A stretch of 59,424 bases of DNA. Source: Candidatus Nanopelagicaceae bacterium. GTDB taxonomy: Bacteria > Actinomycetota > Actinomycetes > Nanopelagicales > Nanopelagicaceae. The notes under the pieces are model-generated. The model was not told where the DNA came from, did not search any database, and saw only the letters and a list, made by a program, of their open reading frames with translations. Below, piece by piece: positions 22,517 to 59,424 of the stretch; the first letter of the stretch is position 1; every line of letters starts with the position of its first letter. Location of the stretch: assembly GCA_018882885.1 (NCBI GenBank), contig VERG01000008.1, forward strand, positions 1 to 59,424, given 5' to 3'. Made by a program: the position numbers and the translations under genes.

Positions 22517-22786
22517 ATGGCATTAACACCTGCCGAGAAGAAAGAAATCATCACAAAGTTTGGCGCCTCTGCATCAGACACAGGAAGCCCTGAAGCTCAG
22601 GTTGCACTTCTCTCTAAGAGAATTGAACAAGTTACCGAACATCTACAAACCAACAAGCATGACCATCACAATCGTCGTGGCTTGCTACTACTTGTAGGTC
22701 GTCGTCGCAGAATTCTGCAGTACCTTGCCAAGACTGATATCGCTCGTTACCGCGCGATTATCGACAAGCTCGGCATCCGCCGTTAG
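22517..22786 (+). CDS. rpsO: 30S ribosomal protein S15
   Basis: Primary 16S rRNA-binding protein of the central domain. The whole 89-aa sequence fits the family, including the signature region [22 protein letters not shown], the [20 protein letters not shown] block and the ending [13 protein letters not shown] small hairpin, TTAGTTT-GCA-AAACTAA (22783-22799), overlaps the stop codon and lacks a T-tract, so it may be a 3'-end stabiliser and not a terminator. rpsO next to pnp is a widely conserved order. Confidence 0.98.
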
Positions 22787-22800
22787 TTTGCAAAACTAAA

Positions 22801-22960
22801 TAATAAAAACCAGCGCAGCAAATCGCTGACAACCCTGGACGACTGGTCCTCGGTGGTGGCTTACGGATTTATCAAAGTGGATTTCCACATAAAGGCCGTG
22901 GGCTTCGATCGAAGATCCATTCTCTAAAGGTGCGCTGGTGCTAGAGAATAGGAGAGACCC
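22801..22960 (+). ncRNA. Cis-regulatory leader of pnp, candidate actino-pnp RNA
   Basis: The rpsO-pnp gap is highly structured. ACCAGCGCA (22809-22817) is perfectly complementary to TGCGCTGGT (22931-22939), a nine-base-pair closing helix spanning about 130 bases. Inside are smaller hairpins such as GGAC-GACTG-GTCC. A second perfect pairing, ATTCTCTA with TAGAGAAT, brackets the 3' strand of the closing helix immediately before the AGGAGAG ribosome site, so the two helices form a pseudoknot or compete. An actinobacterial RNA motif upstream of pnp (actino-pnp) has been described; position and structure fit, but no covariance search was run. Confidence 0.65.
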
Positions 22961-25168
22961 ATGGAGGGTCAAGAGGTTAAGTCTGCCGTTGCCAAAATAG
23001 ATAACGGTAAATTCGGAAAACGAGAGATTCGTTTTGAAACTGGTCGCCTAGCGCGCCAAGCTGCGGGAACCGCGGTGGTCTATCTTGATGATGAATCAAT
23101 GTTGCTATCTGCAACAACCGCATCAAAGTCACCACGTGATCAATTTGATTTCTTCCCACTGACAGTAGATGTCGAAGAGCGTATGTATTCAGTTGGAAAG
23201 ATTCCAGGATCTTTTTTCCGACGTGAAGGTCGTCCATCAGAGGATGCCATCCTTACCTGTCGTTTGATCGACCGCCCATTACGCCCTTCATTCATTAAGG
23301 GATTGCGTAACGAGGTTCAAATCGTTGTAACAGTAATGGCTTTGAATCCAGATCACATGTATGACGTAGTTGCTATTAACGCAGCATCCATGTCTACACA
23401 GTTGGCTGGCTTGCCATTCTCAGGTCCAATTGGTGGCGTACGTGTTGCCCTAATTGATGGACAATGGGTGGCATTCCCAAATCACAGCGATCTAGAGCGT
23501 GCTGTTTTTGACATGGTAGTTGCTGGTCGCATTGCCGGTAATGATGTTGCAATCATGATGGTTGAAGCAGAAGCGACTGTTAAGACAATTGGTCTTATCG
23601 ATTCTGGTGCCACCGCACCAACTGAAGAAATTGTTGGTCAAGGACTTGAGGCAGCAAAGCCATTTATCCGCACACTATGTGAAGCGCAGATGGAGTTAGC
23701 AAAGGTAGCTGCAAAGCCCACCGCTGAGTTCCCTGTGTTCCTTGATTATCAGGCTGATGCTTTTGAAGCGGTAGAAAAGGCTGCAAAAAATGATTTAGCC
23801 AAGGCCCTAACTATCTCCGGCAAGCAAGAGCGCGAGACTGAAATTGATCGAATCGCAGCTGCCACAACAGAGTCACTTGCTCCTAACTTTGAAGGACGCG
23901 AGAAAGAGATTCCTGCAGCTTTCCGTTCCTTGACTAAGAAACTTGTTCGTCAAAGAGTTTTGCGTGACAAGATCCGCATTGATGGTCGCGGATTACGCGA
24001 CATCCGTCCTCTGACCGCAGAGGTTGAGGTTGTGCCACGAGTTCACGGTTCAGCTTTGTTCGAGCGTGGCGAAACCCAGATTCTTGGTATCACCACACTC
24101 AATATGCTCAAGATGGAACAACAGCTAGATACTTTGAACCCAGAGGATCACAAGCGTTATATGCACAATTACAACTTCCCGCCTTATTCCACCGGCGAAA
24201 CTGGTCGCGTTGGATCACCAAAGCGTCGTGAAATTGGACATGGTGCACTCGCAGAGCGTGCTCTTCTTCCAGTTCTTCCAGCTCGTGAAGAGTTTCCTTA
24301 CGCGATCCGCCAGGTATCAGAGGCTTTGGGATCAAATGGTTCCACCTCAATGGGATCGGTTTGTGCCTCAACTCTTTCACTACTTAATGCTGGTGTACCG
24401 CTTAAGGCGCCAGTAGCAGGTATCGCAATGGGTCTGATCTCAGATGATGTTGATGGCAAGACTGAATATGTTGCGTTGACTGACATCCTTGGTGCAGAAG
24501 ATGCCTTCGGAGATATGGATTTCAAAGTTGCTGGAACTAAGGATTTCGTTACAGCGCTACAGCTTGATACCAAGCTAGATGGAATTCCAGCCAGCGTTTT
24601 ATCTGCAGCTCTCTTGCAGGCAAAGGAAGCGCGTTTGGCGATTCTTGGAGTCATGAATGAGGCGATCGATCGTCCTGATGATATGAACCCACTTGCTCCA
24701 CGCATCATCTCAATCAAGATTCCAGTTGATCAGATTGGTGCGGTTATCGGACCAAAGGGCAAGGTAATTAATCAAATTCAGGAAGAGACTGGAGCTGAGA
24801 TCTCTATTGAAGATGATGGAACTATCTTCATTGGTGCCACAAATGGCACCGCAGCAGATGCGGCAAAGGCACAGATTCTTGGCATCGCAGATCCCAAGCT
24901 CCCTGAGGTTGGAGAGCGTTACAACGGAACCGTTGTAAAACTGGCTACCTTCGGTGCATTTGTTAACTTGTTGCCAGGAAAAGATGGTTTGCTACATGTT
25001 TCACAGATCCGAAAGATGCATGGTGGAAAGCGCATCGAAAATCTTGAGGATGTTATGAAGGTGGGCGACAAGGTTCATGTTGAAATCGGAGAGATTGATC
25101 CAAAGGGCAAGCTTTCTTTGGTTCCGGTTCTCGATGACAACGCGCAATCCTCTTCATCTGAAGAGTAG
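22961..25168 (+). CDS. pnp: Polynucleotide phosphorylase
   Basis: 3'-to-5' phosphorolytic exoribonuclease and RNA polymeriser. Two RNase PH domains (about 15-230 and 340-560) separated by a helical domain, then a KH domain ([20 protein letters not shown]) and an S1 domain ([28 protein letters not shown]). Catalytic-site regions [18 protein letters not shown] and [23 protein letters not shown] are present. 735 aa, normal. Preceded by a structured leader that probably controls it; starts the run pnp-M16 peptidase-dapB-glutaredoxin. Confidence 0.97.
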
Positions 25169-55774: not shown

Positions 55775-55887
55775 GGTCACGAGTTCCAGCAATAAGCCCC
55801 GGCTAACTGGACGGCAACCCTCCACCGCGGTGGGGTGCTCCGGGTGAGGACCTGGTCGATTGCAAGGTGCATCGGCAAGCGCGGGTC
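55775..55887 (+). ncRNA. SAM-IV riboswitch
   Basis: Begins GGTCACGAGTTCCAGC, continues AAGCCCCGGCTAACTGG and CGGCAACCCTCCACCGCGG, then TGGGGTGCTCCGGGTGA, and closes with CGGCAAGCGCGGGTC. These are the conserved blocks of the actinobacterial SAM-IV class (compare the M. tuberculosis element). The first pairing is GGTCACGAG-side to GACC; the CACCGCGGTG arm is perfect. High SAM should turn off the downstream transporter operon. Confidence 0.93.
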
Positions 55888-59310: not shown

Positions 59311-59424
59311 GGTCACGAGCTCCAGTTTTAAGCCCCGGCTAACTGGACGGCAACCCTCCACCACGGTGGGGTGCTCCGGGTGAAGACCAGGTCGATAGCA
59401 AGGCGCAATCGACAAGCGTGGGTC
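59311..59424 (+). ncRNA. SAM-IV riboswitch (second copy, at window edge)
   Basis: GGTCACGAGCTCCAG, AAGCCCCGGCTAACTGG, CGGCAACCCTCCACCACGG, TGGGGTGCTCCGGGTGA, CGACAAGCGTGGGTC: nearly identical to the copy at 55775, with compensatory changes in paired arms (for example GCGCGGGTC against GCGTGGGTC, matched by the CCGCGG to CCACGG change). The aptamer ends at the window edge; the expression platform and gene lie outside. A methionine biosynthesis or uptake gene is expected. Confidence 0.92.

Follow-up and report, generated by a model that had tools for sequence, protein, structure and literature searches.

Two folds of an actinobacterial pnp leader, with the SD open or hidden, suggest that PNPase may shut off its own production through strand removal

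In Escherichia coli RNase III cuts the leader duplex of pnp and PNPase then degrades its 5' strand, leaving a processed mRNA that is repressed by CsrA. Strand removal is also at work in hok mRNA, where an exonuclease removes one strand, the refolding alters access to the Shine-Dalgarno sequence (SD) and the trimming activates translation. In Streptomyces coelicolor, according to the parts of the literature available here, RNase III cuts the rpsO-pnp hairpin on either side of an internal loop (PMC10126417), loss of this enzyme raises PNPase activity 2-4 fold and lengthens the half-life of the pnp mRNA (PMC10126417), and RNase III contributes to PNPase autoregulation (PMC10126417, PMC5872136). 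Staggered RNase III cuts at equivalent sites are reported for the pnp leader of Propionibacterium acnes in the accessible part of PMC3848588. The portion at hand of the paper describing the Actino-pnp motif (PMC2864571) lists it as RNA yes, cis-regulatory yes and switch no, and cites the autocontrol of E. coli PNPase. In open-licence PubMed Central no description was found of an SD-hiding alternative fold of an actinobacterial pnp leader.

Here we have analysed the pnp leader of a Candidatus Nanopelagicaceae bacterium, contained in a window of 59,424 nucleotides (the whole stretch of DNA analysed). Like the members of Actino-pnp (RF01688), this leader sits at the same site before pnp, has the same conserved internal-loop stem and scores over the gathering threshold. 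The 63-position model stops at the core, and the helices A and B and the start-codon hairpin of this leader fall outside the model used. With the S. coelicolor hairpin it shares the internal loop cut by RNase III, the cut being a prediction here; the effect in S. coelicolor is explained by transcript stability, and in the part of that source available an SD-hiding alternative fold is not mentioned. The likeness to E. coli pnp would be the RNase III cut, the degraded 5' strand and the repressed processed mRNA, all three proposed for this leader, but in E. coli the protein CsrA reads the exposed strand, whereas here we propose that the exposed strand itself hides the SD. As in hok, removal of a strand would drive a refolding that changes the SD, but hok is activated and pnp would be silenced. 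CsrA (PF02599), the protein expected for control of the E. coli type, was found neither in the own genome nor, with one exception, in the 201 genomes of the family; 40 of 296 genomes of the class have one.

The locus and its Actino-pnp core

The leader stretch lies between rpsO (22517-22786) and pnp (22961-25168). We take these names from the genes' own sequences, together with the usual rpsO-pnp order for the former and the RF01688 context for the latter. The features of the region are as follows.

22517..22786, + strand: rpsO (ribosomal protein S15, presumably), ORF of 89 aa, precedes pnp
22809..22817, + strand: helix A, 5' strand ACCAGCGCA, exact complement of 22931-22939
22842..22920, + strand: Actino-pnp core (RF01688), presumed RNase III substrate, 60.4 bits
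22855..22857, + strand: core internal loop, 5' side, near the presumed primary RNase III cut, from the Rfam alignment
22903..22914, + strand: CUUCGAUCGAAG, part of the core 3' strand that includes the internal loop's 3' side, conserved and self-complementary
22916..22926, + strand: helix B, 5' arm UCCAUUCUCUA, overlapping with the core stem at its base
22931..22939, + strand: helix A, 3' strand UGCGCUGGU (also TGCGCTGGT), within the loop of helix B
22942..22953, + strand: helix B, 3' arm UAGAGAAU-A-GGA, takes in the GGA of the SD
22950..22954, + strand: SD of pnp, AGGAG, from the sequence, 6 nt before the start codon
22956..22970, + strand: start-codon hairpin GACCC(AUGGA)GGGUC, five pairs in 105 to 109 of 110 family leaders
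22961..25168, + strand: pnp (polynucleotide phosphorylase, presumably), ORF of 735 aa

A sequence-only reading had assigned this leader to the actino-pnp motif, and the covariance search with the RF01688 model bears the assignment out: the match at 22842-22920, in the leader of the pnp gene starting at 22961, covers the full model (1-63) and scores 60.4 bits, above the gathering score of 47.7 (E 7.2e-11). There is one match in the own genome. The model also matched in 168 of the 201 family genomes (many of the remainder are incomplete genomes), in 59 of 60 near relatives and in 271 of 296 genomes of the class. The folding energy of the 186-nt leader was better than that of 200 out of 200 shuffles (z -4.15).

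The gene for RNase III (rnc) is present in the window's genome. By analogy with S. coelicolor, the cut would be expected at the internal loop around 22855..22857, and CUUCGAUCGAAG (22903..22914) is taken as the predicted 5' end of the processed mRNA; a 4-bp hairpin is predicted to be possible within CUUCGAUCGAAG after loss of the 5' strand. This sequence is near-invariant both in the family and outside it, though the 5' strand imposes no need for its self-complementarity.

Elsewhere in the window a SAM-IV riboswitch (55775-55887, 102.3 bits) precedes what appear from their sequence to be ABC transporter genes (binding protein, permease and ATPase), and a second one (59311-59424, 107.7 bits) ends exactly at the window end.

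Two long helices and their variation among relatives

Both of the long helices that had been proposed in this leader are exact and lie where they had been placed. Helix A (ACCAGCGCA/TGCGCTGGT) matches letter for letter at 22809-22817/22931-22939 and closes a stretch of 131 nt; a perfect 9-bp helix of this kind between the shuffled core flanks appeared in 6 of 2000 shuffles. The inner part of helix B, ATTCTCTA (22919-22926) with TAGAGAAT (22942-22949), is equally exact letter for letter, wraps the 3' strand of helix A and ends right before the SD AGGAG (22950-22954). None of 2000 shuffles gave a perfect 8-bp hairpin like it between the core end and the SD. In addition, helix B extends across the SD through UCC 22916-22918 and GGA 22951-22953, with one bulged A, an extension missed by the earlier reading. 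When the 3' part is folded alone, from CUUCGAUCGAAG on, helix B reaches UCCAUUCUCUA/UAGAGAAU-A-GGA with the GGA of the SD paired, and in the product starting at 22904 its pairing probability is ~1 over most of its length and ~0.98 at the GG of the SD.

The sequence-only reading had described the two helices as competitors that either form a pseudoknot or switch. The linker between the 3' strand of A and the 3' arm of B measures only 2-3 nt in the g1 leaders inspected, which from loop geometry should be too short to span a 9-bp helix, so a pseudoknot with full-length A is unlikely. In g40 the helices A and B use the same bases. From the short linker and these shared bases we read A and B as mutually exclusive alternatives: the competition holds, and of the two outcomes offered the pseudoknot with both full helices is the unlikely one.

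For the comparison with relatives a set of 322 loci was used, and in 314 of them a core followed by a pnp reading frame was identified (115 of 116 family loci and 199 of 206 from other families); L155, L177, L203, L276, L277, L278, L310 and L319 could not be parsed. The family loci come from 116 of the 168 matching family genomes, matches of the class were included only in part, and the other-family loci include named Streptomyces, Amycolatopsis and others from a pattern scan of at least 120 named genomes. Identical leaders were merged, giving 303 distinct leaders for the SD opening (after exclusion of one whose SD could not be recognised) and 109 or 110 distinct family leaders elsewhere. The shuffles for the SD opening and for the chance of the helices were approximate, swap-based dinucleotide shuffles, and the seed of the former is not reproducible. 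In the g1 alignment an insert in the window's lineage misaligned the 5' strand of helix A, and swap tests were therefore used in place of pair counts; in these, the pairing energy of a leader's own two sides is compared with that of sides swapped between leaders. Another alignment, of 53 leaders, mixes two registers of helix B, with and without the bulged A, and is unfit for pair counts.

The co-evolution of helix A among relatives is strongly supported. Among 41 family representatives the cognate sides paired at -21.24 kcal/mol and the swapped sides at -14.46 kcal/mol (z -13.1, 0 of 2000 permutations); z was -14.2 for 117 representatives of other families and -7.6 with one leader per family (32 families). 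The phylogenetic independence of all these representatives is incomplete. Furthermore, the double changes seen in 232 close within-genus pairs kept the pairing in 83 cases and broke it in 59. The presence of an SD-like sequence in the 5' strand of helix A is mildly supported, the observed mean being reached by 25 and 30 of 5000 permutations. A small additional hairpin, AGCAAAUCGCU, sits between the 5' strand of helix A and the core (region 22817-22840) in the window and in three close relatives, and is absent from the other g1 leaders.

Helix B co-evolves between genera and hardly varies within them, so that the covariation which the sequence-only reading had staked its proposal on is strong in A and, for B, is found between genera and scarcely within a genus. 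Counterparts of B are UCCAUUUCU/AGAAAUGGA in g39, UCCAUUCUC/GAGA-A-AUGGA in g2, CUCCUUU/AAAGGAG in g40 and UCUCCAU/AUGGAGA in g10, and within g4 ACUCC/GGAGU is found as well as GCUCC/GGAGC. The between-genera co-evolution is supported by the family swap test of the core end against the SD zone, with non-overlapping zones (n=40 of 41), in which cognate sides paired at -10.17, permuted sides at -8.59 and shuffled sides at -6.70 (z -4.7, 0 of 5000 permutations). When in the same family test the core end was paired with codons instead of the SD zone there was no signal (z 0.8). The duplex test outside the family was weak, with z -2.1 for the whole spacer (n=117) and z -0.6 with one leader per family, and for the core-end zone in other families the value went in the wrong direction (z 0.9). 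In the 232 close within-genus pairs, one double change in B was compensating and six were breaking.

The triplet that follows the GAUC/GAUU of the core also bears on helix B. It reads CAT in 85 of 109 family leaders, its bases fit the SD in helix B (CC with GG), and the innermost of the three pairs that it could make with the core 5' side is broken in 96 of the 109; outside the family, 196 of 197 leaders form the same pair. That CAT is kept despite the broken pair would mean that the 3' strand is kept for something beyond the core stem, and we take this as selection for helix B at the expense of that stem.

Another element that had escaped the earlier reading is a 5-bp hairpin with the start codon in its pentaloop. 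Its five pairs are formed in 105, 105, 109, 105 and 105 of 110 family leaders, some slid registers also pairing well at single positions. The pair -1/+6 is C-G in 87 leaders and U-A in 15, with 103 Watson-Crick matches vs 77 expected (0 of 2000 permutations). The U-A form occurs in g39 (12), g2 (1), g12 (1) and g5 (1), and in the gene the exchange turns GAG into GAA, both of which code for Glu. As a whole this hairpin is not common to the other families.

Opening of the SD: intact leader versus predicted 3' product

By computation we show not only two helices, read as mutually exclusive, and their co-evolution, but also an extra occlusion of the SD in the predicted 3' product. In 107 family leaders the mean cost of opening the SD was 1.14 kcal/mol in the intact leader, 4.00 in the 3' product and 2.10 in the shuffled product; in 196 leaders of other families these values were 2.68, 4.44 and 3.16 kcal/mol. 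The product was above the intact leader in 95 of the 107 and 161 of the 196, which is partly automatic as a pairing partner has been removed, the real tests being the shuffle and swap controls. In these, a shuffle p<=0.1 was obtained by 70 of the 107 family leaders and 69 of the 196 others, and by group the product exceeded the shuffled one in 14 of 17 genera (p 0.013) and in 28 of 32 other families (p 2e-5). With a foreign spacer the SD was cheaper to open, both in the 41 family representatives (2.96 vs 3.77 with their own, Wilcoxon p 0.007) and in 116 others (3.91 vs 4.85, p 2e-5). In the predicted product of 78 of 110 family leaders the bases of the SD are paired with the core end at a mean probability of at least 0.5.

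There are exceptions: the nine leaders of g4 and single leaders of g12 and g38 are not above their own shuffles, and single leaders of g5 and g12 are lower in the product than intact. A link between the presence of CsrA and a weak helix B was considered, g4 holding the sole CsrA-bearing family genome, and was rejected; only that genome has CsrA, and the classes with CsrA include cases of strong helix B.

In the window's own leader the effect is modest, with 1.89 for the intact RNA, 3.12 for the product and 2.01 for the shuffled product (shuffle p 0.2). Folded from 22790 to 22975 the intact leader has helix A in its minimum, and from 22787 to 22978 helix B wins (-66.4 kcal/mol with B forced, -62.3 with A forced, P(B) ~0.93). 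In the models the two helices come out near-equal in the intact RNA, the balance depending on the chosen ends, and energy models cannot decide between A and B.

A possible one-way switch and its alternatives

Autoregulation by PNPase, which had been called plausible, is on our prediction the likely role of this leader. The two folds, one with the SD open and the other with it hidden, suggest that the enzyme may shut off its own production by removing a strand. We are evenly divided over the full form of this reading, in which the leader is an Actino-pnp RNase III substrate and a one-way switch driven by PNPase itself. In the ON state the core hairpin would form first during transcription and then zip down into helix A, which would occupy the 3' strand and leave the SD free for the translation of pnp. 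As the core and A can be complete before the 3' arm of B is transcribed, the A state should be the first that a nascent leader adopts. RNase III would then cut the core at the internal loop, the 5' strand remaining annealed through helix A. Abundant PNPase would attack the nicked 5' strand at the 3' end created by the cut and degrade it. The 3' strand, now set free and made up of the core end and the 3' strand of A, would refold into B with the core end pairing the SD, initiation would stop and the mRNA would decay. Helix B would thus take the place of CsrA, and no ligand would be needed.

Plain control of decay by RNase III and PNPase, which we regard as rather unlikely, would make the hairpin a cutting site only: PNPase would strip the 5' strand, the unprotected 5' end would be decayed, and helix B would be incidental or a merely stabilising hairpin beside the SD. 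The effect of RNase III loss on pnp in S. coelicolor is read as stabilisation in the available part of PMC10126417, and helix B varies so little that it could be kept for reasons of the SD or of the core. However, the 5' arm of B lies partly outside the Rfam core and is kept where a core pair is sacrificed, it prefers its own SD zone over those of other genera (z -4.7 in the swap test), and the occlusion of the SD in the product exceeds that of the shuffles in most genera (the 14 of 17 above).

A reading in which the intact leader is closed by helix B by default, and is moved towards A by some factor besides PNPase (an RNA-binding protein or a helicase, temperature, or ribosomes on rpsO), seems quite improbable to us. 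In its favour, A and B differ by no more than a few kcal/mol in the window, B leading in one version, and pnp belongs to the cold-shock genes of E. coli; but the SD is accessible in the intact leader of most other genera (the mean of 1.14 kcal/mol in 107 leaders), and the order of the sequence would allow core and A to form ahead of the 3' arm of B. We give very little likelihood to a riboswitch that binds a ligand, or to the coexistence of both helices in a stable pseudoknot. Both arms are exact and in the order of an H-type pseudoknot, but the linker of the g1 leaders inspected should be too short for the 9-bp helix, and where bases are shared, as in g40, the helices exclude each other directly. 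The ligand that had been entertained for the motif is not supported either, since in the part of PMC2864571 available the motif is marked as not a switch.

With somewhat more doubt than belief, the PNPase-driven switch may be extended to the class, so that actinobacterial pnp leaders would be protein-free translational switches triggered by an exonuclease, varying in sequence and register by genus and doing without the CsrA step. PNPase would eat a decoy strand that holds the anti-SD strand, and the released strand would close the ribosome site. If true, this would supply the missing step between trimming by PNPase and translational silencing in bacteria without CsrA, and would be a natural design in which the enzyme's own catalysis flips an RNA switch. 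A known RNA motif is extended on both sides by helices that can be tested with simple mutations, and the model predicts which bases of this class-conserved leader should matter.
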